In this document: piece by piece, positions 15,037 through 49,777 of the stretch
Position numbering within the stretch: the first letter of the stretch is position 1
How the letters are laid out: every line of letters begins with the position of its first letter
Source: Marnyiella aurantia
Lineage (GTDB): Bacteria; Bacteroidota; Bacteroidia; Flavobacteriales; Weeksellaceae
Direction: 5' to 3'
Assembly (NCBI RefSeq): GCF_014041915.1
Contig: NZ_CP059472.1
Location: 1,612,001-1,676,000 of the forward strand
DNA length: 64,000 nucleotides
Notes under the pieces: generated by a model
Seen by the model: only the letters and a program-made list of their open reading frames with translations
The model's database searches: none
Told to the model about the DNA's origin: nothing
Position numbers and translations under genes: made by a program

Positions 15037-16212
15037 CTAAAGAAACTTACTCTCTACCAAATTCCAGAGCCTTTGTGCGTATTCGTCCGACTTTTCCCAG
15101 TTGTTCTCATAATAGGCGTCACTAAGATATTCACGTGCTTCCTCCAAAGTAGCAAAACTGTTAAGATCCCTGATTGTTTCATTAAGTTTGGACTGGCTGC
15201 CACCAAACAGCATTTTGGAAAACGCTATTTTATCGTTCAGATCCAGTCTGAATTCGGGCTTAGGCTTAGCCGCTTCCATGAAATCGGTAGGAATATTGGA
15301 TTTACGCAGACTGTCTGCCGGTGCAGCCGGAGAATGTTCTTCTCGGATTACATCTTCAAGTGGGTCGTCATCAAACAGTGACTGTATTCTTTTCAGACCT
15401 TTTATGCTGGAGAGTTTAAATTTTTTCTCTTCATGCTGTTCCTGCAGCTTTTCAGCAGCGTCGTTCAGTTCCTGCATTTTCTGTTCATGCTCAAAATCCA
15501 CAATCTGTCGGCGTGACTCCGATGTTTTGGATTTTTCTTCATTATTTTCTGCGGTCTGCAATTCTGAAACATTTTTCAGCGGCATATCTGATGCACTGGA
15601 TTCAGGTTCTTCAGCAGAATCTTCATCAACGGTTAAAGTATCTGTATTAATCTGCTGATGTTCATCCTGAACCGAAACTTCAGCAGTAGAGTCTTCATCG
15701 ATCTCTACCGGCACCTCTTCAGCAGATTCTTCAGTATTTGAAACAGGTTCGGTCTCTGATTCGGAATCATGGGACTTTGTTTCATCTTCATCCAAATCAA
15801 GCTCTATATGCGTAATCCGGTCAATTTCGTTAAGTTCATTGTTAAAGGCAGCCTCTTCCTCCAAAACATCAACACCCATTTCCGGATGATCTATTTCGGA
15901 ATCTTCAATCTGGTTAAAATTATTGTTGAAGATAACCTCCTCTTCAGCGATATAAGTATTGCTTTCAAACTCAGGATTCTCATTAAAAAAATCTGTGCTT
16001 AGTGCCTGACTTACAGGTGCTTCCGAAACCGATTCTGTAAGTCGAAGCGAGTACGTATTAAAGCGCTGCAGAAATGTCACAAGTTCCCGAAGTTCCGCAA
16101 GATCGCCCGCGGCGTTTACCAGTTCTTCGGCGCTCGAAACATTGCCCAGTCTGGTTATGATGGAAGTGGCATCCTGGAAGGCCTGATCCTGAATTTCCTG
16201 AAATTTATGCAT
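15037..16212 (-). CDS. Acidic cytosolic protein of unknown function
   Basis: 391 residues, no signal peptide or membrane span. Three parts can be seen. A helical N-terminal domain (about 1-70) begins MHKFQEIQDQAFQDATSI. A long acidic low-complexity centre (about 70-230) is rich in Glu, Asp, Ser and Val and is probably unstructured. A short coiled coil (FEHEQKMQELNDAAEKLQEQ) leads to a conserved-looking C-terminal helical domain (DLNDKIAFSKMLFGG to the end). A head-linker-tail layout suggests a scaffold or adaptor. It is the first gene of the leftward run with the Mur ligase, rsmI and fabG. I do not recognise the family. Confidence 0.75.
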   Translation of the reverse strand: MHKFQEIQDQAFQDATSIITRLGNVSSAEELVNAAGDLAELRELVTFLQRFNTYSLRLTESVSEAPVSQALSTDFFNENPEFESNTYIAEEEVIFNNNFNQIEDSEIDHPEMGVDVLEEEAAFNNELNEIDRITHIELDLDEDETKSHDSESETEPVSNTEESAEEVPVEIDEDSTAEVSVQDEHQQINTDTLTVDEDSAEEPESSASDMPLKNVSELQTAENNEEKSKTSESRRQIVDFEHEQKMQELNDAAEKLQEQHEEKKFKLSSIKGLKRIQSLFDDDPLEDVIREEHSPAAPADSLRKSNIPTDFMEAAKPKPEFRLDLNDKIAFSKMLFGGSQSKLNETIRDLNSFATLEEAREYLSDAYYENNWEKSDEYAQRLWNLVESKFL

Positions 16213-16272: not shown

Positions 16273-16866
16273 ATGTTTTTAGAAAATACAATAAATCATT
16301 CCAAACAAAGCGGCTGGATGGAAGTAATCTGTGGGTCAATGTTTTCGGGTAAAACGGAAGAACTGATCCGCCGTCTCAGACGTGCCGAAATGGCCGGTCA
16401 GACAGTAGAGATTTTTAAACCGCAGATAGATACCCGTTATGGGCTGGAAGAAGTGGTGTCCCACAACCTGAATAAGATTCGCAGCACACCCGTTGAAAGT
16501 TCCAACGAAATTCTTCTTCTGGGCTCAACGTGCGATGTGGTTGGGATTGATGAAGCTCAGTTTTTTGACAGTGGTATTGTGGAAGTAGCCAATAATCTGG
16601 CAAACAACGGTGTACGAGTAGTAATAGCAGGTCTGGACATGGATTTTATGGGACGGCCGTTCGGCTCCATGCCCTATCTCATGGCTACTGCCGAATATGT
16701 TACGAAAGTGCACGCCATCTGCAGGAGGACGGGCAACCTGGCCAATTATTCCATGAGAACCTCAGAAAGTGTTAATCTGGTAGAACTGGGCGAAACTGAG
16801 AACTATGAAGCTGTGAGCCGACGTGTTTTTGCTGATCACGTACTTAATAAAACTTTGCCGGAATGA
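16273..16866 (+). CDS. tdk: Thymidine kinase
   Basis: 197-residue type II thymidine kinase that phosphorylates thymidine with ATP for the salvage of dTMP. The P-loop is GSMFSGKTEEL, the DEAQFF motif gives the Walker B/catalytic region, and the lasso loop follows. Canonical enzymes bind structural zinc through two cysteine pairs. Here the first is CRRT and the second region reads YEAVSRR, so only one of four cysteines remains and the zinc is probably absent. Its stop overlaps the start of the murF-alr gene by 4 bp. Confidence 0.94.
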   Translation: MFLENTINHSKQSGWMEVICGSMFSGKTEELIRRLRRAEMAGQTVEIFKPQIDTRYGLEEVVSHNLNKIRSTPVESSNEILLLGSTCDVVGIDEAQFFDSGIVEVANNLANNGVRVVIAGLDMDFMGRPFGSMPYLMATAEYVTKVHAICRRTGNLANYSMRTSESVNLVELGETENYEAVSRRVFADHVLNKTLPE

Positions 16867-19313
16867 ACTATAGAGCAGCCCAGATAGCCGAAATCACCGG
16901 CAGTAAGGTTATCGGTGACGCATCCGTAACCGTGAAAAATATTTCATTTGACAGCAGAAACCTCTTTGCTGTTCAGGACCGTGCCTTCATTGCCATTAAT
17001 ACGAGTCAGAACAGTGGCGAAAAATATATTTCCGATGTTCTGGAAAGAGGTATAAGGATTATTATTGCCGAGCACAAAGCCTGTGACAAGGAGGGAATCA
17101 CCTGGATCCTGGTTGAAAATTCTGTGCTGTTTCTTCAGAAACTGGCTAAATACCACCTGAAATCCTTCCCTGATTTAAAAACTGTAGGAATTACGGGCAG
17201 CAATGGTAAAACGATAGTCAAGGAGTGGCTTTATCAGTGTATTTATAATATTTTTGATACAGTAAAAAGTCCAAAAAGCTTCAATTCTCAAACAGGTCTT
17301 CCACTGTCTATACTTCAGACCGGCAAAAAACATGAAGTTGGAATATTTGAAGCCGGAATTTCCAGGCCTGGCGAGATGGCAGTATTAGCTGCTATCTTTT
17401 CGCCCGAGATAGGTGTTCTGACCCATATTGGCACGGCGCACTCGGCAAATTTTTCTACGGAAAGTGAGTTAATTGATGAAAAACTTAAATTTTTCAAAGA
17501 TTCTTCAGTCATTATCTTTAATGGCGACCATCCCGGAATTTATGATGCGGTATCCTTACGATATCCTGACAGAAAATTGGTGTCTTACGGATTGGGGCCC
17601 CATAATAAACTATTTGTCCAGTCAGGTTGGGACAACTTCTCCAATGAAATAACAGTTTCCTATTTTGATAATGTTTTTAAATTCAACCTTTCCCAAAAAG
17701 ATGAAGCCACACTTCAAAATGTTCTTGCACTTATTGCAGTACTGAAGGAACTGCAGGTAAGTAATGAAGAAATTGTTCAGAAGTTGGTCGGGTTGAAAGC
17801 CATTGAAATGCGCCTGGAATCGGTGCACGGTGTACGGGGTAATCTGGTAGTGAATGATTCTTTTAACCTGGACGTGGATTCATTAAAAATTGCCTTCCAG
17901 TTTATAAAGGAATATAAGAAGGTTAAAAAAGTCCTTATCCTTACAGATATCATCGATGTAAAGGAACCACCGGATCAGCTCTATAAGGAAGTCGCACAGT
18001 TGGTTAATGAACAGGATTTTGACCGTGTTTATCTTGTCGGATCAGTTATCACCCAGTATCATGCTCTTTTTCAGGCAAAATCTTATATCTATAAAGATTC
18101 CGCCGACTTGATCGAAAGTCAAACGCTTAATCATATTGAAGATTCTCTTATCCTGCTGAAAGGAGCAAGAAAGTTTGCCATCGAAAAAATTAAAAATCTG
18201 CTGGAACTCCAGAAACATGACACCGTTCTGGAGGTTAATCTGAATGCACTACTCCACAACATAAACATTCACAAAGCACTGCTGAAACCGAAAACCAGAA
18301 TGATGGCGATGGTGAAAGCCTACTCGTACGGCCTTGGCGGCTATGAAATAGCTGAATTTCTTCAGCATCATCATATAGATTATCTTGGAGTCGCATATGC
18401 CGATGAGGGTATGGACCTGCGAAAGAATGGCATTACTACACCAATCATCGTGATGAACCCCGAGCAACACAGTTATAATGCCATTATAGAATATAATCTG
18501 GAGCCTGAAATATACAGTTTCCGGGTTCTTGAACTCTTCTGGAACGCGCTGAATGAACTTGGGGTAGATAAACAGTATCCCATCCACATCAAGCTGGAAA
18601 CCGGCATGCACCGTCTCGGCTTCAAGAGTGAAGAACTTATGCTGCTTGCTGAGAAGCTGAATACAATGAATCTGAAAGTGGCCAGTATATTCAGTCATCT
18701 GTCCACCTCAGATATGTCTGACGAGCGTGATTATGCATTGAGCCAGATTGAAGTATTCTCATGTAACACTGATGTATTGATTAATGCGCTGGGCTACCGG
18801 CCCGTTCTCCATATCCTGAATTCGGCAGGGATCACATCATTCACAGAATATCAGTTTGATATGGTGAGGATAGGAATCGGAATGGTGGGTATATCTAATG
18901 ATCCTGCTGTTAAAAAACAGCTTCAAAATGCAGTAGTTTTCAAAACAGTAATCTCGCAGATTTCCCATGTTAAGGCAGGTGATTCCATTGGTTACAGCCG
19001 GCGCCATATCGCTGGTACAGACACCAGGATCGCCACCATTCCCGTTGGATATGCCGACGGTATCCCCAGGATGATAGGCAACGGGAAAGGCTTCGTCTCG
19101 ATTAATGGAAAGCTTTGCCCCATAGTGGGAAATATATGCATGGACATGCTCATGGTGGATATTGGGACTCTGCAAGTTCAGGAAGGCTCTGAGGTTGTCA
19201 TCTTTAATTCCAAACCCACTCTGGAACAGTTTGCTGAATATTGCCAGACCATACCCTACGAGGTTTTGACTTCCATATCAAGACGTGTTAAACGAATCTA
19301 TATAAAAAATTGA
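16863..19313 (+). CDS. murF: Bifunctional UDP-MurNAc-tripeptide:D-Ala-D-Ala ligase / alanine racemase
   Basis: 816 residues made of two enzymes of peptidoglycan precursor synthesis. Residues 1 to about 450 are MurF, with P-loop GITGSNGKT, and join D-Ala-D-Ala to the UDP-MurNAc tripeptide. Residues from about 455 are alanine racemase (Alr), with the PLP lysine in MMAMVKAYSYG and the catalytic tyrosine in SIGYSRRH. Alr supplies the D-alanine from which D-Ala-D-Ala is built, so the fusion couples two linked steps. This fusion is a known hallmark of Bacteroidota. It overlaps tdk by 4 bp and touches the patatin gene. Confidence 0.95.
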   Translation: MNYRAAQIAEITGSKVIGDASVTVKNISFDSRNLFAVQDRAFIAINTSQNSGEKYISDVLERGIRIIIAEHKACDKEGITWILVENSVLFLQKLAKYHLKSFPDLKTVGITGSNGKTIVKEWLYQCIYNIFDTVKSPKSFNSQTGLPLSILQTGKKHEVGIFEAGISRPGEMAVLAAIFSPEIGVLTHIGTAHSANFSTESELIDEKLKFFKDSSVIIFNGDHPGIYDAVSLRYPDRKLVSYGLGPHNKLFVQSGWDNFSNEITVSYFDNVFKFNLSQKDEATLQNVLALIAVLKELQVSNEEIVQKLVGLKAIEMRLESVHGVRGNLVVNDSFNLDVDSLKIAFQFIKEYKKVKKVLILTDIIDVKEPPDQLYKEVAQLVNEQDFDRVYLVGSVITQYHALFQAKSYIYKDSADLIESQTLNHIEDSLILLKGARKFAIEKIKNLLELQKHDTVLEVNLNALLHNINIHKALLKPKTRMMAMVKAYSYGLGGYEIAEFLQHHHIDYLGVAYADEGMDLRKNGITTPIIVMNPEQHSYNAIIEYNLEPEIYSFRVLELFWNALNELGVDKQYPIHIKLETGMHRLGFKSEELMLLAEKLNTMNLKVASIFSHLSTSDMSDERDYALSQIEVFSCNTDVLINALGYRPVLHILNSAGITSFTEYQFDMVRIGIGMVGISNDPAVKKQLQNAVVFKTVISQISHVKAGDSIGYSRRHIAGTDTRIATIPVGYADGIPRMIGNGKGFVSINGKLCPIVGNICMDMLMVDIGTLQVQEGSEVVIFNSKPTLEQFAEYCQTIPYEVLTSISRRVKRIYIKN

Positions 19314-21479
19314 ATGAGAAAAACGTTTTGTCTGTTTCTATTGTGTTTGGCTGTGCTTTATTTTGAGGCTCAGGTAAAGGAAGGTTTTAAACTACCCCCA
19401 AATCCCCGCATTGGACTTTCACTCTCAGGTGGCGGCGCCAAAGGCTTTGCTCATATAGGAGTTCTTAAAGTGCTCGATTCTCTGGGTGTTAAAGTGGACT
19501 ACATCTCAGGCACCAGTATGGGTGCGATCGTAGGCGGGCTTTATGCCTCCGGCTATACAGGAAAGGACATTGAAAAGATAGTTCTGGATACGGACTTCTA
19601 CAATATAATTGCCAATGAGAAAACGAGGCAGGAAACAACATTTTTCAATAAATCTGTAGATAAATATATCCTTACAGTTCCAATAAAAGACGGTAAGATA
19701 AATATACTGCCGAAAGCGATATCTACGGGTCAGAAAAATATCTATCTGTTACGCGAGCTCTTTAAAAACGTATCCACTACAACAGATTTTTCCCAGTTAC
19801 CAATCCCGTTTCTGTGCATAGGCACAAACCTGGAAAGCGGTAAGATGGAAATCTTTGAAAAAGGAGATCTGGTAAGCGCGATTATGGCGAGTTCTGCCTT
19901 CCCTTCACTTATGGATCCCGTTCAGATTGGTGATTCACTTTATATTGATGGGGCAATGACCATTAATTATCCTTCTAAGCCACTTAAAGATAAGGGAATT
20001 GACGTTGTGATAGGAGTAGATCTCAGCCAGGGATTAGCCAGCAGGGAAAATATGCGCAGTGCGCTGGATATTTTAAATCAGGTAATTGATTACGGAATTC
20101 AAGAGGAAACCCGTGCGCAGTATAAATATACGGATATCAATATACGTCCAGACCTTACCGGTATGAACTCTACCAGTTACGACGCGAAGGCTGCCATACT
20201 GGATTCCGGCTATGTTGAGGCACAAAAATATGTTCCTGTCTTATCCCAACTTCCCAGGCGTGAGCAGACTCTGTTACGTACTCCAATGAACCTCTTATAC
20301 AGTAATCTTTACAAGATCGACAGTCTGGTGGTGGAGAACAACCGCATATTTCGGAAAAACTATATTGAAGGTAAAATGAACCTTCGCCTGCCCGCTCTCC
20401 TTACTTATGGCACTATTAACAAAATGGTGGATAAACTGTACGCCACAAACAATTATAAGCTTATTAACTATGATATCATTCAGGGTGAAGAAAGCAATGT
20501 TCTGAAACTAAATGTTACAGAAGATGAGACTCGTTTTTTCTTAAAATTCGGACTTCATTATGACGAGGTTTTTAAAACAGGATTGCTAATCAACGCTACT
20601 GCCAAACGGCTCCTGTTCAGGAATTCTATTGTTTCCCTGGATTTGGTAGTAGGAGATAAGCCACGGTACTATTTCAATTATTTCATTGACAACGGATATA
20701 TACCCGGATTCGGATTATATGCCTCCGGCATGTCACTGGACCTGAGGGACAGTAATGTAAACAGAGTGGAAAGCTGGAACTGGCTGCGTACCGAAGCCTT
20801 TATACAGTCCATCTGGAAGGATAAATACGCAGTTGGGGGTGGAATAAGTCATGATTATTATGAATCAAAAGGAATTGGCCAGTCGGACTATACAGATGTA
20901 GAAAGTATGGTAAATCCATACCTGTTCATTAAATCTGATACACAGGACGACCGGAGCTTCCCTACCAAAGGAATACTGTTGAGTGCTGAAGGGAAATTAT
21001 TGGATTTGTTGAACGAAGATCAGGAAGGCCGAACCTTTCAGACACGATTATTTGCACAGCTAAATTTTCCGCTTTCCAGACTGTTTACTTACAGGCTCCT
21101 GTTGGCTGGAGGCTTAACCCTAGGTGAAGATATTTCAAGTTATAAACTGTACCGTACAGGAGGGATTTTCGAGCAGAATTTGGGCAATTTCTTTGCTTTA
21201 CAGGGCTATCAGTTTGGCGAGCACAGCACCAGGAATATACTGATGGCAGCAAATACACTGCAGGTAAATGTCTACAAAAATTTCTTTGCCGACTTGACTG
21301 TTAGCGCAGCCAATCTTTTCAATGATATTGAGGTTGATGATATTTTTTTCCTTTCAGAATCGTCGGCTGGTTTAACCGCGGGATATAAATCTCCGGTCGG
21401 ACAGATAAAAGTAAATTACAGCCACTCTTTTGAGCGGCAGACAGGTGTTTTCAGTGTAATATTAGGACATTATTTTTAA
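19314..21479 (+). CDS. Patatin-like phospholipase with outer membrane barrel (PlpD-like)
   Basis: 721 residues. After a signal peptide comes the patatin domain. Its oxyanion loop is LSLSGGGAKGFAHIG (35-49), the nucleophile elbow is GTSMG (Ser 68) and the catalytic aspartate is in YIDGAMT. From about residue 350 a POTRA-like segment leads into a 16-strand-type surface-antigen/BamA-like barrel that ends in the aromatic pattern VILGHYF. The layout matches type Vd secreted lipases such as PlpD, in which the barrel anchors or exports the lipase. It starts one base after the murF-alr stop. Confidence 0.9.
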   Translation: MRKTFCLFLLCLAVLYFEAQVKEGFKLPPNPRIGLSLSGGGAKGFAHIGVLKVLDSLGVKVDYISGTSMGAIVGGLYASGYTGKDIEKIVLDTDFYNIIANEKTRQETTFFNKSVDKYILTVPIKDGKINILPKAISTGQKNIYLLRELFKNVSTTTDFSQLPIPFLCIGTNLESGKMEIFEKGDLVSAIMASSAFPSLMDPVQIGDSLYIDGAMTINYPSKPLKDKGIDVVIGVDLSQGLASRENMRSALDILNQVIDYGIQEETRAQYKYTDINIRPDLTGMNSTSYDAKAAILDSGYVEAQKYVPVLSQLPRREQTLLRTPMNLLYSNLYKIDSLVVENNRIFRKNYIEGKMNLRLPALLTYGTINKMVDKLYATNNYKLINYDIIQGEESNVLKLNVTEDETRFFLKFGLHYDEVFKTGLLINATAKRLLFRNSIVSLDLVVGDKPRYYFNYFIDNGYIPGFGLYASGMSLDLRDSNVNRVESWNWLRTEAFIQSIWKDKYAVGGGISHDYYESKGIGQSDYTDVESMVNPYLFIKSDTQDDRSFPTKGILLSAEGKLLDLLNEDQEGRTFQTRLFAQLNFPLSRLFTYRLLLAGGLTLGEDISSYKLYRTGGIFEQNLGNFFALQGYQFGEHSTRNILMAANTLQVNVYKNFFADLTVSAANLFNDIEVDDIFFLSESSAGLTAGYKSPVGQIKVNYSHSFERQTGVFSVILGHYF

Positions 21480-21481
21480 CG

Positions 21482-21889
21482 ATGATAGAATATTTTTTCG
21501 AGGATATCGACCAGATTCAAATTGAACCGACCATTAAGGAATGGTTGATTCAGCTTATAAAATCAGAAGGTTTCAAGGTCGGACAAGTCAACTATATTTT
21601 TTGCAACGATGAATATTTACTTAAGGTAAACCGTGACTTTCTAAATCACGACTATTATACAGACGTGATCACCTTTGATTACGTGAAGGGTAAAACAGTC
21701 TCGGGTGATATTTTCGTATCTTTGCCGCGCATTTCCGAGAATGCTGAACAATTAGGTTCCAGCTTTGTGACGGAGCTAAAAAGAGTTTTGGCGCACGGTA
21801 TACTCCACCTTTGCGGATATAAAGACAAAACTACCGAAGAGGCGGCGGAAATGCGTAATAAGGAAGAATTTTATCTTGCGTTAATATAA
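21482..21889 (+). CDS. ybeY: Endoribonuclease YbeY
   Basis: 135 residues. YbeY trims rRNA precursors (16S 3' end) and takes part in ribosome quality control; it is a zinc enzyme. The usual metal site is HGxLHLxGYDH. Here it reads HGILHLCGYKD, so two histidines (105 and 109) are kept and the third ligand is replaced by aspartate 115. Aspartate can bind zinc, and I recall the same replacement in other Bacteroidota, so I treat the protein as functional. It lies 2 bp after the patatin gene and 22 bp before the first parS site. Confidence 0.9.
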   Translation: MIEYFFEDIDQIQIEPTIKEWLIQLIKSEGFKVGQVNYIFCNDEYLLKVNRDFLNHDYYTDVITFDYVKGKTVSGDIFVSLPRISENAEQLGSSFVTELKRVLAHGILHLCGYKDKTTEEAAEMRNKEEFYLALI

Positions 21890-21911: not shown

Positions 21912-21927
21912 TGTTTCACGTGAAACA
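21912..21927. other. parS site 1 (ParB/Spo0J binding site)
   Basis: TGTTTCACGTGAAACA is identical to the conserved 16-bp chromosomal parS palindrome. Flanking bases extend it to an 18-bp perfect palindrome (21911-21928). It lies in the spacer between ybeY and mnmG, 18 bp before the mnmG start. Confidence 0.9.
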
Positions 21928-21945
21928 TTAACTACAAAATTTAAT

Positions 21946-23808
21946 ATGATTACAGATACATATGACGTAATTGTCGTAGGCGGTGGACATGCCGGTTGCG
22001 AAGCAGCCGCGGCAGCCGCAAATCTCGGGTCCAGCACACTTCTTGTAACAATGAATATGCAGACTATCGGACAGATGTCCTGTAACCCAGCTATGGGTGG
22101 TATTGCAAAAGGACAGATCGTTCGCGAAATTGATGCCCTGGGTGGATATTCCGGTATCATTGCCGATAAATCTGCAGTGCAGTTCAAGATGCTTAACTTA
22201 TCCAAGGGTCCGGCCATGTGGTCTCCAAGAACACAAAACGACAGGATGATGTTCGCAGAAGAATGGCGGATAGCACTTGAAAACACACCGAATTTGGACT
22301 TCTTCCAGGATATGGTAAAGAGCCTTATAATAGAGAATAACCGTGCAGTAGGCGTTGTAACCTCACTTGGAATTTCAATAAGGTCAAAGTCTGTAATTCT
22401 TACAAACGGCACCTTTCTTAATGGATTAATTCACGTAGGTGATAAGCAACTCGGCGGCGGTCGGATGGGCGAACCACGGGCGTTCGGGATAACTGAACAG
22501 CTTGTTTCGCTGGGTTTCGAAGCTGGTCGTATGAAAACCGGTACTCCACCGAGGGTGGACGGACGGAGCCTTAACTACTCGGTAATGGAGGAACAGAAAG
22601 GTGATGAAAAACCTCAGAAGTTCTCCTACACAGATACTCCAAAATTGACTCGACAGTTGAGCTGCCATATAGTTTATACAAACGAAACAGTACATGATAT
22701 TCTGCGTGAAGGTTTTGAAAGAAGTCCAATGTTCAACGGTACGATTCAGAGTACTGGCCCCAGATACTGTCCAAGTATCGAGGATAAAATTAACCGTTTC
22801 GCAGAGCGTACCAGACATCAGTTGTTTGTAGAACCTGAAGGTTGGAGAACATGCGAAATTTATGTTAACGGTTTCAGTTCATCGCTACCTGAAGATATTC
22901 AGATCAAAGCCATGCGACATATACCGGGATTTGAAAATGTAAAGGTTTTCCGGCCTGGATACGCAATAGAATATGACTACTTCCCTCCTACCCAACTTAA
23001 CCATACCCTGGAAACAAAGCTCATTGCAAATCTTTATTTCGCCGGACAGATAAACGGAACTACAGGTTATGAGGAAGCCGCAGGACAAGGCCTTATGGCC
23101 GGCATAAATGCACACAATAAAGTTCATGGCAAAGATGACTTTATACTCCAGAGAGATGAGGCGTATATTGGTGTATTGATTGATGACCTGATAACAAAAG
23201 GGACAGAAGAACCCTATAGAATGTTTACCTCCAGGGCCGAATACAGACTGCTGCTAAGACAGGATAATGCAGATGTACGGTTAACAGAAAAAGGTTATAA
23301 AATTGGCTTGGCAAGTGAAGAACGCTTGAAAACTGCCGAAGAGAAAATTACAAAGAGTAACGAATTGGAAGCATTCCTAAAGGATTATTCACTGAAACCA
23401 GGTGTCATAAATCCGGTGTTGCAGACTATCGATTCATCACCCGTAGACCAGGCTTACAGAGCTGCTCAGATACTGACAAGACCAAATATGAGTCTTGAAA
23501 AGCTTGAAGATATTGAAGGCATCAGGGAAATAAGTTCTACATACGCTGAGGAGGTGCGCGAACAGGCAGAAATCAATATTAAATACCGCGGATACATAGA
23601 AAAGGAGAAAGAAAATGTGGCTAAACTGAACAGGTTGGAAACAATTAAAATTCCTGAAGATTTTAATTATGAGGCTATAACATCGCTTTCCGCCGAAGCT
23701 AAACAGAAGATGACTAAAGTAAATCCGAAAACAATAGCCCAGGCATCCAGAATCAGCGGTGTTTCTCCAGCAGATATTAATGTCCTGCTTATATATTTGG
23801 GAAGATAA
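21946..23808 (+). CDS. mnmG: tRNA uridine-5-carboxymethylaminomethyl modification enzyme MnmG
   Basis: 620-residue FAD enzyme. With MnmE it modifies the wobble uridine (position 34) of several tRNAs. The FAD loop is VVGGGHAGCEAA near the N-terminus; the family motifs CNPAMGGIAKG and DALGG follow, and the Cys in RTRHQLFVEPEG region and the helical C-terminal domain are present. The length is typical. It is bracketed by two parS sites, 18 bp before its start and 7 bp after its stop. In many bacteria gidA/mnmG sits near the origin beside gidB, soj and spo0J, but those genes are not in this window. Confidence 0.96.
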   Translation: MITDTYDVIVVGGGHAGCEAAAAAANLGSSTLLVTMNMQTIGQMSCNPAMGGIAKGQIVREIDALGGYSGIIADKSAVQFKMLNLSKGPAMWSPRTQNDRMMFAEEWRIALENTPNLDFFQDMVKSLIIENNRAVGVVTSLGISIRSKSVILTNGTFLNGLIHVGDKQLGGGRMGEPRAFGITEQLVSLGFEAGRMKTGTPPRVDGRSLNYSVMEEQKGDEKPQKFSYTDTPKLTRQLSCHIVYTNETVHDILREGFERSPMFNGTIQSTGPRYCPSIEDKINRFAERTRHQLFVEPEGWRTCEIYVNGFSSSLPEDIQIKAMRHIPGFENVKVFRPGYAIEYDYFPPTQLNHTLETKLIANLYFAGQINGTTGYEEAAGQGLMAGINAHNKVHGKDDFILQRDEAYIGVLIDDLITKGTEEPYRMFTSRAEYRLLLRQDNADVRLTEKGYKIGLASEERLKTAEEKITKSNELEAFLKDYSLKPGVINPVLQTIDSSPVDQAYRAAQILTRPNMSLEKLEDIEGIREISSTYAEEVREQAEINIKYRGYIEKEKENVAKLNRLETIKIPEDFNYEAITSLSAEAKQKMTKVNPKTIAQASRISGVSPADINVLLIYLGR

Positions 23809-23815
23809 ATTAAAA

Positions 23816-23831
23816 TGTTTCACGTGAAACA
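23816..23831. other. parS site 2 (ParB/Spo0J binding site)
   Basis: A second exact TGTTTCACGTGAAACA, 1,904 bp from the first, in the 35-bp gap between mnmG and the methyltransferase gene. Confidence 0.9.
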
Positions 23832-23843
23832 ATACAATATTTT

Positions 23844-24677
23844 ATGAAAATAAAGGATCATTTCCTAACTGGCGAATCATTCGATTTAGAGTCAACAGCA
23901 ATCAACGGTATTTTAAAAACCAGTCCGGTGCCGGCCAATCTTGCTCCCTATTACGAAAGCAAAGATTACATATCCCACCACCAGGATTCAGGAAGCATAA
24001 AAGAAAAAGTATATAAGATTCTTCAAAAAATAAATCTTAATTATAAAAGAAATATAGTAGCCGCTGAAATTCCTGCTAAAGGGAAAATTTTGGACTATGG
24101 ATGTGGTGCCGGCGAGTTTATAAAATATGTCCAGAAGGATTTTACAGCATTCGGTTTTGAACCAAACGAGGCTGCGAGAAATGCAGCAGTAACAAAATCC
24201 GGTGAGAAAGCAATTATTTCAGATCTGTCCGATATACAGGACGAAAGTCTGAATGCTATTACTCTGTGGCATGTATTTGAGCATATAGAAAACCAAAAAG
24301 AGATGCTGCATCTATTCCGGAATAAACTTCGCCAGGACGGGGTATTAATTGTTGCTGTTCCAAATCCAGGATCCTTTGACGCCCACAAGTATAAAGAATT
24401 TTGGGCTGCCTGGGATGTACCAAGACATCTATATCATTTCACACGATCTGGAATGACCAATTTAATGGAGAGTGAAAAATGGAAAGTTGTAAAAGTGAAA
24501 CCACTCCTACTCGACTCATTCTATATTTCAATGCTTAGCGAAAAATATAAAAAATCATCGTTATTCTGGCTTAAAGGTGCGGTGATCGGGGCAATTTCTA
24601 ATTTTAAAGCATCAAAAAACGGCGAATTTTCCAGTCTGATATACATTATTAGAAAAAATGAGAAAATCGATTTTTAA
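23844..24677 (+). CDS. Class I SAM-dependent methyltransferase
   Basis: 277 residues. The SAM-binding loop is ILDYGCGAGEFIKYV (about 80-94). Post-loop motifs ITLWHVFEHIEN and GVLIVAVPNPGSFDAHKYKEFWAAWDVPRHLYHFT belong to the UbiG/methyltransferase-11/23 type. Residues 1-50 precede the catalytic domain and may place the substrate, which cannot be named. It starts 12 bp after the second parS site and has no SD. The long AT-rich 3' flank leads to the pgk terminator. Confidence 0.88.
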   Translation: MKIKDHFLTGESFDLESTAINGILKTSPVPANLAPYYESKDYISHHQDSGSIKEKVYKILQKINLNYKRNIVAAEIPAKGKILDYGCGAGEFIKYVQKDFTAFGFEPNEAARNAAVTKSGEKAIISDLSDIQDESLNAITLWHVFEHIENQKEMLHLFRNKLRQDGVLIVAVPNPGSFDAHKYKEFWAAWDVPRHLYHFTRSGMTNLMESEKWKVVKVKPLLLDSFYISMLSEKYKKSSLFWLKGAVIGAISNFKASKNGEFSSLIYIIRKNEKIDF

Positions 24678-24852: not shown

Positions 24853-26043
24853 TTAATTATTAATAGCACGGATTCCTGGAAGCTCTTTTCCTTCCAAACT
24901 TTCCAGCATTGCTCCACCGCCGGTTGAAACATAACTTACTTTACCCTCATAACCAAACTGCTTTACAAAGGCTACACTGTCTCCTCCGCCCACAAGTGAA
25001 AAGGCTCCGTTGCGGGTAGACTCCGCTATACTGTCGCCCAAAGCAACTGTGCCAGCTGAAAAACTTGGCATTTCAAACACACCGATCGGTCCGTTCCATA
25101 AAATAGTTCTTGAACTTAAAATTACGTCATGAATCAGTACACGGGATTTTGGACCCGCGTCCAGACCCATCCATCCTTCTGGTATTTCATAAATATCCAT
25201 CTCCTTAGTATCGGCTTCATTACTGAATTCATCTGCACCTATCACATCAACCGGCAAATAAACTTTTACATTTTCAGCTTCTGCACGCTTCAGAATATCG
25301 AGAGCAAGATCCATTTTATCTTCCTCTACGACTGATGTGCCAATGCTGCCTCCTAAAGCCTTAACGAAAGTAAATGCCATACCACCACCAATAATAAGAT
25401 TATCAATAGCCGGAAGCATATTTTCAATAATAGTTATCTTAGACGAAACCTTGGATCCACCAATAATTGCAGTTACAGGCTTCTCCCCTTTCTGAAGAAC
25501 TTTTTCAACAGCTTCAATTTCTTTGGCCATTAATAAACCGAAAAACTTAGTCGATGGAAAATACTGAGCGATAACTGCAGTGGAAGCATGTTCACGGTGT
25601 GCAGTACCAAAGGCATCATTCACATAAGCATCAGCATATTTAGCCAGCTTTTCTGCAAACGTTTTATCACCCGCTTCTTCTTCATTATAAAAACGAAGAT
25701 TCTCCAGTAATAGAATGCTGCCCGGTTTTAACTCACCAGTCATTTTTACAGCTTCGTTACCAAGACAGTCCTTACAGAACTGAACTTCCCTGCCAAAAAC
25801 TTCTTCGATCTCGGGAACAATATTCTTCAGTGAAAATTCTTCAGAAACTTTACCCTTAGGCCGTCCCAAATGAGTCATTAAAATTACGGAACCTCCATCA
25901 TTCAGGATTTTCTCCACAGTTTCTTTTGCGGCCTGGATTCTGGTATTATCTGTTACTTTAAGGTCAGCACTTTGCGGAACATTGAAATCAACCCGAACCA
26001 GGGCTTTCTTGTCTTTAAAGTTAAAATCATTTATTGTTTTCAT
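24853..26043 (-). CDS. pgk: Phosphoglycerate kinase
   Basis: 396-residue glycolytic enzyme that transfers phosphate from 1,3-bisphosphoglycerate to ADP. It shows VRVDFNVP at the N-terminus, the substrate-binding HLGRPKG, ENLRFY, the hinge FGLLMAKE, the glycine-rich [19 protein letters not shown] and the C-terminal GGGDSVAFV with TGGGAMLE. The length is that of bacterial monofunctional PGK. It is monocistronic between a 0.6-kb spacer and its terminator. Confidence 0.97.
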
Positions 26044-26067
26044 AAAATCACCCTGTTTTTAGTTGCA

Positions 26068-26075
26068 CAAATTTA
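26068..26075 (-). promoter_or_regulatory. -7 promoter element of pgk
   Basis: On the minus strand TAAATTTG matches TAnnTTTG and lies 24 bp before the pgk start codon. No clear -33 box. Confidence 0.5.
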
Positions 26076-26615
26076 ACACTTATTCGGATGATTAAAAATT
26101 AAAAACAATTTAAAATTCCCCAATCCCCAACGACTCATCTTATCTACATTATTATTTTTTTATATAAAAAGAATATGAATACTGTTGTTGTAGTTCGGGG
26201 ATTTGGGGAGAAATAACCTTGAATTATTTCACTACACAGAAACGTTCCTGAAATCACAGTTTAGTAACAATAAAATGATGTTAGTTAACAGCACTTTAGT
26301 CCTGTTATCCCCAATTGTTAGTATTTTCATGTCCACCCCACTATCAGTAGTTCTGATATTAGCAAAATGCTACCGCCGGCAGGTGAACTTCTTTTTAATT
26401 TTTTGCTGATTATCCGGAAAGAAAATCCATTATAAAAATATCCGGGCTGCGAAAGCTTTTGTTCCCGGGACTTACCAACAGTGTTTCCCTATTATCCTCA
26501 CATGATACTGGTGGAAAAAGCTGTTTCCTGCAATACAATTTAGCCGTAAAAGAATATCGACCATCTTCCACCCTCATTTATAATCCTCAAGAATCTGTAT
26601 TTATATTATAAATCC

Positions 26616-26623
26616 TAAATTTG
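26616..26623 (+). promoter_or_regulatory. -7 promoter element of the rpiB operon
   Basis: TAAATTTG matches TAnnTTTG, 28 bp before the rpiB start codon. No clear -33 box. Confidence 0.5.
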
Positions 26624-26651
26624 TAGGCATTGGGCATTATATAAAGTAAAC

Positions 26652-27083
26652 ATGAAAAAATTAGCTATAGCGTGTGACCACGCGGGATACGAGTATAAGG
26701 AGAAGCTGAAAGAACATTTCTGCGGACGTTTTGAGATTCAGGATTTCGGTACTGATTCGGCAGAGTCTGTGGACTATCCGGACTTTGTTCATCCTGCAGC
26801 CAATTCCGTTGAAACGGGTGATAATGAGTTGGGTATACTGATTTGCGGTAGCGGGAACGGTGTCCAGATGTCAGCAAATAAACATAAGGATGTCCGTTGC
26901 GCACTGTGCTGGATGCCTGAATTGGCAGAACTTTCACGTCAGCACAATAATGCAAATATGATTGCAATCCCTGCAAGGTTTATTGCATTTGAACTTGCAG
27001 TTGAAATCATTGAGAAGTTTATTAGCACGGAGTTTGAGGGAGGAAGACATGCAGGCAGAGTAGCAAAAATAGCTTCCTGCTAA
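26652..27083 (+). CDS. rpiB: Ribose 5-phosphate isomerase B
   Basis: 143 residues, RpiB/LacA family. It interconverts ribose 5-phosphate and ribulose 5-phosphate in the cytosol. It shows the N-terminal IACDHAGYEYKE, the catalytic cysteine in ILICGSGNGVQMSANK, and RHNNANMIAIPAR-like CRQHNNANM. It is the first gene of a seven-gene rightward operon and has its own promoter in the long spacer. The next gene, rnr, starts 29 bp downstream. Confidence 0.95.
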   Translation: MKKLAIACDHAGYEYKEKLKEHFCGRFEIQDFGTDSAESVDYPDFVHPAANSVETGDNELGILICGSGNGVQMSANKHKDVRCALCWMPELAELSRQHNNANMIAIPARFIAFELAVEIIEKFISTEFEGGRHAGRVAKIASC

Positions 27084-49519: not shown

Positions 49520-49777
49520 TTGAAAAACGATCTTTCCAACAAACTTTGCTGCTTCCCGCGAAACATTTCTGGGAAGGTTTTGGATTACGAAAATGAACAT
49601 CTGGAGATGCCGGGAAAAATCATTGAAATGGGACTTCTGCCCGGAACTGTTTTCCGTGTACTCTATCAGGCTCCGTTCAGCGGGCCGCTTTACGTTGAAT
49701 TTGGAGAGGAGAAAAGCCGGATAGCCCTTCGTCAGGAAGAGGCACGCTTCATCATTGTGGAAACCCTTAAAGACTGA
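49520..49777 (+). CDS. feoA: FeoA ferrous iron transport protein
   Basis: 85 residues, SH3-like domain. FeoA assists FeoB, the Fe(II) transporter. The body shows MPGKIIEMGLLPGTVFRVL and a mid-domain PFSGPLYVEFGEEKSRIALRQEEARFI, the typical FeoA fold. The frame is open from 49493 but no ATG lies before residue 30, which would be too short; I chose TTG at 49520. FeoB starts 1 bp after its stop, so translation is coupled. Confidence 0.88.
   Translation: MKNDLSNKLCCFPRNISGKVLDYENEHLEMPGKIIEMGLLPGTVFRVLYQAPFSGPLYVEFGEEKSRIALRQEEARFIIVETLKD

Follow-up and report, generated by a model that had tools for sequence, protein, structure and literature searches.

Paired parS sites flank mnmG near the likely replication origin of Marnyiella aurantia, at a distance from parAB and dnaA

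An origin adjacent to dnaA is the usual rule in many bacteria, and location of parAB near parS and the origin is common but not required. According to the accessible text of a study on 12 mouse-gut bacteria, including two Bacteroidetes, ori was placed using parS clusters together with GC skew and was not systematically located at dnaA, and no known condensin was found in the two Bacteroidetes (PMC10197239). Accessible portions of two other reports give predictions of oriC at or beside mnmG that agree with GC skew, one for Mariniflexile litorale (PMC11278836) and one for Algorimicrobium (PMC12843772), both made with Ori-Finder 2022. One figure legend in the available M. litorale text labels mnmG as ter, contrary to the text of the paper itself (PMC11278836). 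For Elizabethkingia meningoseptica, the part of the report at hand places a predicted oriC, which contains three DnaA boxes, a long way from dnaA (PMC8994065). Location of oriC beside mnmG has already been predicted in the available text on two Flavobacteriaceae. A description of parS sites flanking mnmG was not found in the excerpts of open-licence literature that we searched, the scope of which did not extend to the 2007 parS survey of Livny et al.

We analyzed a 64,000-nucleotide stretch of the Marnyiella aurantia genome, hereafter the window (bases 1,612,001–1,676,000 of contig NZ_CP059472.1, assembly GCF_014041915.1). We take the family of this genome to be Weeksellaceae. The genome is one contig of 2,613,493 bases (2.61 Mb), and a circular form was assumed for all distances. 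Two perfect copies of TGTTTCACGTGAAACA bracket mnmG with a start-to-start distance of 1,904 bp (Table 1), exactly where a preliminary description of the window had put them. Site 1 lies between the ybeY stop and the mnmG start and ends 18 bases 5' of the start codon, while 7 bases separate the mnmG stop from site 2. The preliminary description had also taken the palindrome for the conserved chromosomal parS, which was borne out: both sites are exact copies of the parS consensus in the accessible text of PMC10197239, and the genome encodes ParA and ParB. With up to 3 mismatches allowed, the window contained three matches to TGTTTCACGTGAAACA compared to 0.38 expected, a number that none of 100 shuffles gave. 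The third of these (position 49550, 3 mismatches) was weak and was put down to chance. In the whole genome, a search at ≤2 mismatches returned two matches, which were the two mnmG-flanking sites, and the same search with the backwards-read TGTTTCACGTGAAACA as a control returned 0.

Table 1 Coordinates of the parS pair, its neighboring genes, and the candidate origin, numbered from the first base of the window.
Feature	Position	Strand	Description
ybeY, endoribonuclease	21482..21889	+	PF02130; conserved left neighbor of parS site 1
parS site 1	21912..21927	.	Exact TGTTTCACGTGAAACA, ybeY-mnmG gap; kept in relatives
mnmG (gidA)	21946..23808	+	620 aa; TIGR00136, E 6e-259
parS site 2	23816..23831	.	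Exact TGTTTCACGTGAAACA, mnmG-methyltransferase gap; kept in relatives
SAM-dependent methyltransferase	23844..24677	+	PF13489; usual right neighbor of parS site 2
pgk, phosphoglycerate kinase	24853..26043	-	PF00162
Candidate oriC, divergent pgk-rpiB intergenic	26044..26651	.	608 bp, 33% GC (AT-rich)
rpiB, ribose-5-phosphate isomerase B	26652..27083	+	PF02502

To the left of ybeY, the window contained two gene fusions, one joining a Mur ligase-like part to an alanine racemase (16863–19313) and one joining a patatin phospholipase to an Omp85-type barrel (19314–21479). The 391-aa reading frame at 15037–16212 had no match in Pfam at E values up to 0.001.

The arrangement was conserved well outside the window. 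From 594 confirmed places ranked by similarity of MnmG, the best 80 made up our set of named mnmG loci, which were, by title, nearly all flavobacteria. Of these best 80 of 594, 79 had a parS-like site (≤2 mismatches) no more than 400 bp from mnmG: on both sides in 60, on the upstream side alone in 14, and on the downstream side alone in 5. The remaining locus had none. The 25 closest named loci among the matches listed shared 82–87% MnmG identity with the window and belonged to Chryseobacterium and Kaistella. Exact TGTTTCACGTGAAACA was found on both sides of mnmG in 23 of the 25 loci of this Chryseobacterium group, again among the best 80 of 594. Many other flavobacterial loci in the same 80 (L120–L174) carried TGTTCCACGTGGAACA instead. 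Judging from these sequences, the difference between TGTTTCACGTGAAACA and TGTTCCACGTGGAACA would be a lineage switch in both half-sites, and ParB should match it. Five Flavobacterium loci (L126, L129, L131, L149, and L150) had runs of at least two parS-like sites 5' of mnmG, and six Chryseobacterium loci (L096, L102, L105, L110, L111, and L118) had an extra parS-like site (1–2 mismatches) about 6.3–6.9 kb 5' of mnmG.

Among the 48 genomes of the window's own family, including the window's, at least 39 had both sites and 6 more had at least one, two were not placed, and one (G023) had no site near mnmG at ≤1 mismatch; in this tally fetched loci were read at ≤2 mismatches and the listed others at ≤1. 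Across 79 genomes (the window's plus relatives), a parS match at ≤1 mismatch was found in 58 and a match to the backwards pattern in 2. We also sampled 61 genomes across the phylum and read 50 loci, consisting of the 30 best-scoring and 20 chosen from the other 31, with 11 left out. The choice of the 20 thinned one over-represented family (f27). Besides the genome of the window itself, the 50 contain one other member of its family and five of its order. A site at ≤2 mismatches was present within 400 bp of mnmG in 44/50 of these loci (43/49 without the window's own genome). Sites were on both sides in 14, only upstream in 15, only downstream in 15, and absent from 6, one of which had an exact site 511 bp from mnmG. 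The backwards control had 0 matches in 70 loci.

Four relatives had no ParB match. Three of them are very small genomes (G061, G070, and G077) that keep mnmG and had no parS site at ≤1 mismatch; the fourth, G034, had both parS sites all the same. Among the 75 genomes that do have a ParB match, 18 were likewise without a site at ≤1 mismatch; in 5 of these, mnmG had adjacent sites with 2 mismatches. Across the loci compared, parS flanking mnmG looks like a Bacteroidota habit.

ParB had a single match in the M. aurantia genome (TIGR00180, E 2e-51), located at 1,102 kb on the minus strand. The protein contained the ParB_N, HTH_ParB, and ParB_C domains, and solved Spo0J/ParB chains aligned with it over a span running from the N-terminal domain up to and including the helix-turn-helix. 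The gene directly 5' of parB encoded a ParA-type ATPase (PF13614, E 5e-68), which scored under the cut-off of the NCBIfam ParA equivalog model (114 of 180 bits), and a DapB gene was found 3' of parB with one gene between. The parAB locus was 531 kb from the nearer parS site and so was close to neither parS nor the origin. The dnaA gene was at the contig start (match at bases 166–1518), which on a circular map puts it about 980 kb away from parS. One SMC model, searched against the whole genome, gave no match above its cut-off (best partial match 27 of 567 bits), and ParB-parS in M. aurantia may therefore operate without Smc-ScpAB.

We used strand composition in stretches covering 48% of the genome to locate the origin. 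Cumulative GC skew was lowest in the 20-kb bin that ends at 1,640 kb, inside the window, and highest in the one that ends at 320 kb, roughly on the other side of the chromosome; a range this wide was reached in 0 of 2,000 bin shuffles. Genes are themselves skewed, and we therefore modeled skew in the coding sense over 1,034 open reading frames. With gene strand modeled, third-codon GC skew gave a best axis of 1.63–1.64/0.32–0.33 Mb (R2 about 0.095; the highest value from 100 shuffles was 0.016). For origins set at dnaA and at 1.10 Mb (parAB), R2 was 0.009 and 0.002, respectively. With the terminus fixed at 325 kb, a fine scan in 2-kb steps peaked at an origin of 1,638 kb, and the block bootstrap 95% range was 1.59–1.69 Mb when searched within 1.30–1.96 Mb. 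The leading strand carried 57.9% of coding bases with the origin at parS vs 46.0% with the origin at dnaA.

The remaining measures were more variable. Fourfold AT skew gave an axis of 1.59/0.29 Mb, and fourfold-degenerate GC skew had no signal over its null (R2 0.009 vs a null maximum of 0.015). Intergenic GC skew was best at 1.72–1.75 Mb (0.0241), slightly lower at 1.63 Mb (0.0228), and of opposite sign for dnaA. Cumulative gene orientation reached its minimum at 1.32 Mb with an almost equal value at 1.62 Mb. In the first 20 stretches only, whole-gene skew was above the null (0.067 vs 0.044) and third-codon skew was not (0.041 vs 0.045). Skew alone is ambiguous as to which pole is the origin and which the terminus, and we chose between them by the customary excess of G on the leading strand, the share of genes on that strand, and parS. 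Strand composition and the parS pair together support a replication origin at or near the window, and the two parS sites are clustered near the skew origin. This agrees with the preliminary description, which had placed the window close to oriC and had suggested checking cumulative GC skew, further copies of the 16-mer, and parA/parB. The skew switches at the window, no additional copy exists at ≤2 mismatches, and the parAB pair is present, so that none of the three outcomes named there as counting against an origin-proximal parS (no parB, a 16-mer widespread without origin bias, or a skew origin far away) was observed. Its further remark that parS is often located beside gidA, gidB, soj, and spo0J holds here for mnmG (gidA) but not for soj and spo0J, which are as distant as noted above, as is dnaA.

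Within the window, DnaA boxes were tried as a means of placing oriC and rejected: TTATNCACA at ≤1 mismatch occurred 69 times compared to 65.8 expected, which is not above shuffles, and relatives were therefore needed. Gene order in the Chryseobacterium group was ybeY-parS-mnmG-parS-methyltransferase followed by pgk (reverse) and rpiB (forward), with extra sequence between in some. Across 25 related loci, the pgk-rpiB intervals add up to 21,382 bp and contained 92 DnaA-box-like motifs (4.30 per kb), where shuffled sequence would give 12.7, compared to 233 in the remaining 512,825 bp of those loci (0.45 per kb). Because the loci are related, they do not count as 25 separate observations, and in four of them the interval is longer than 1.1 kb and may hold genes. 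The same motif had 0 occurrences in the window's own pgk-rpiB gap. About 165 bp on the pgk side of this gap, including an AT-rich stretch and TTATCTACA, aligned with both Kaistella loci (scores of 153 and 161; shuffle maxima of 32 and 30), and had weaker local scores to four other loci (31 to 56), one of which (L115) was no better than shuffled. This part may also hold the pgk promoter. The gap corresponds to genome positions 1,638,044–1,638,651 and adjoins the best origin of the fine scan at 1,638,000, within a 95% range that also holds about 100 kb of other sequence. By comparison with these relatives, the gap is likely the oriC of M. aurantia and we list it as the candidate in Table 1. We confine the pgk-rpiB assignment to Chryseobacterium and Kaistella, and perhaps Apibacter, because other named loci were box-poor: outside the Chryseobacterium group and Apibacter, a relaxed box motif found at most 4 boxes per 500 bp (L131 and L159) among the best 80 of 594. 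Apibacter L132 had 7 boxes in the 500 bp directly 5' of pgk.

On the whole, skew in three other genomes agreed with this placement: with 20 stretches sampled from each in steps of 164–318 kb, the origin came out 14–389 kb away from mnmG. In Chryseobacterium indologenes AA5 the distance was 43 kb by whole-gene skew and 231 kb by third-codon skew, with a step of 265 kb, and in Flavobacterium SLB02 the best origin was 389 kb from mnmG with a step of 318 kb. The origin of a phylum mate (G087) was 14 kb off mnmG (step 164 kb), and an origin at mnmG would put only 48.5% of its coding bases on the leading strand. An origin at dnaA fit far worse in AA5 and SLB02, the two genomes for which the dnaA position was known. 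Besides the M. aurantia genome there were 17 single-contig relatives, 14 of which had both dnaA above the cut-off and parB. With contigs treated as circles and some lengths rounded, the distance from mnmG to dnaA was 541–1,424 kb in all 14, and that from mnmG to parB was 550–1,365 kb except in G057 (169 kb). In Bacteroidota, it seems, parS and the origin have remained with mnmG, and the dnaA and parAB loci are found at other places.

Other readings of the pair were weighed against these data. The sites might serve mainly as ParB operators of mnmG, and of the methyltransferase next to it, thereby tying tRNA modification to replication or segregation, the mnmG product being presumably a tRNA uridine-modification enzyme. 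Site 1 is just 18 bases 5' of the mnmG start codon, the mnmG-adjacent sites are conserved, and there is a precedent in Pseudomonas aeruginosa, where ParB at the intergenic parS3 and parS4 represses adjacent genes according to the available text of two reports (PMC5521831; PMC7022226). A fixed operator role would nevertheless predict something other than the one-sided sites of 30/50 phylum loci, and the three very small genomes keep mnmG with neither a ParB match nor a site at ≤1 mismatch. The latter is a weak point, because so many genomes with ParB are likewise site-less at that threshold. We consider a mainly regulatory role unlikely.

The contig begins at dnaA, and in a second rival reading the true origin is there and the parS pair is remote from it. 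The accessible M. litorale text, however, reports a dnaA start out of line with the GC-skew plot (PMC11278836), dnaA is hundreds of kilobases or more from mnmG in all 14 single-contig relatives noted above, and in M. aurantia itself the dnaA position explains next to nothing of the skew (R2 0.009 vs about 0.09) and leaves a minority of coding bases on the leading strand. An origin at dnaA is thus very improbable. Even less credible is that the palindromes arose by chance or belong to another regulator such as the nucleoid occlusion protein (Noc). CACGTG palindromes often serve as regulator sites, and the ParB protein does match the Noc model, though under its cut-off (245 of 315 bits). But the 16-mers are exact, have no further copy in the genome, and recur beside mnmG in relatives, the genome has one match to the ParB model, and the core of the Noc site differs from that of parS.

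The sites, their uniqueness, a ParA and a ParB with standard domains, a regional skew origin, and a conserved arrangement were all directly observed. We regard it as very likely that the palindromes are the parS centromere of this chromosome, situated a few kb from the origin (most likely pgk-rpiB), loaded by ParB, and segregated by ParA. For ParB binding, spreading, segregation, and the exact oriC, we infer the following model. The origin would most likely be the pgk-rpiB intergenic region, 2 to 5 kb right of the parS pair. The distant parAB locus would supply ParB, which would load on both sites as a CTP-dependent clamp and, by analogy with ParB biochemistry in other bacteria, slide over mnmG and its neighbors. 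Such spreading may influence mnmG expression, as the preliminary description suggested. ParA would then pull ParB such that newly replicated origins separate first.

A bolder proposal is that parS-mnmG-parS is an ancient, selected unit of Bacteroidota chromosomes. Keeping mnmG within the zone loaded by ParB beside oriC would link its transcription or its product to the segregation of origins, in a phylum whose parAB and dnaA are dispersed and, in M. aurantia, with no SMC condensin picked up by the standard model. We find this doubtful. Its weaker form is more likely, namely that the origin in this phylum is reliably marked by mnmG with a flanking parS, and not by dnaA. The mnmG-parS pair would mark the origin at the sequence level in a large phylum. 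Assemblies may begin at dnaA, the wrong place for the origin, as the M. aurantia contig does, and the landmark would correct dnaA-based analyses of replication timing, growth rate, and strand bias. It also raises the question of why the centromere was kept beside mnmG, yet the partition and initiator genes are elsewhere.

To our knowledge, none of the 12 mouse-gut species is a flavobacterium. The study on them used the same parS consensus, and mnmG is not mentioned in the portion of its text covered here (PMC10197239). Mariniflexile and Algorimicrobium, both Flavobacteriaceae, resemble M. aurantia in having oriC beside mnmG, and the covered portions of those reports leave parS unmentioned (PMC11278836, PMC12843772). 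Another close counterpart is the Soj-Spo0J-parS system of Bacillus subtilis and its relatives. In contrast to ParABS of B. subtilis, for which we use the textbook features, M. aurantia has its parAB and dnaA far from parS, at the distances given above, and only two sites, both beside mnmG, with no SMC match to the one model searched. Shared between the two are the 16-bp consensus, the ParA and ParB families, and the origin-proximal sites; the function of the M. aurantia pair is ordinary, and it is the arrangement that is informative.
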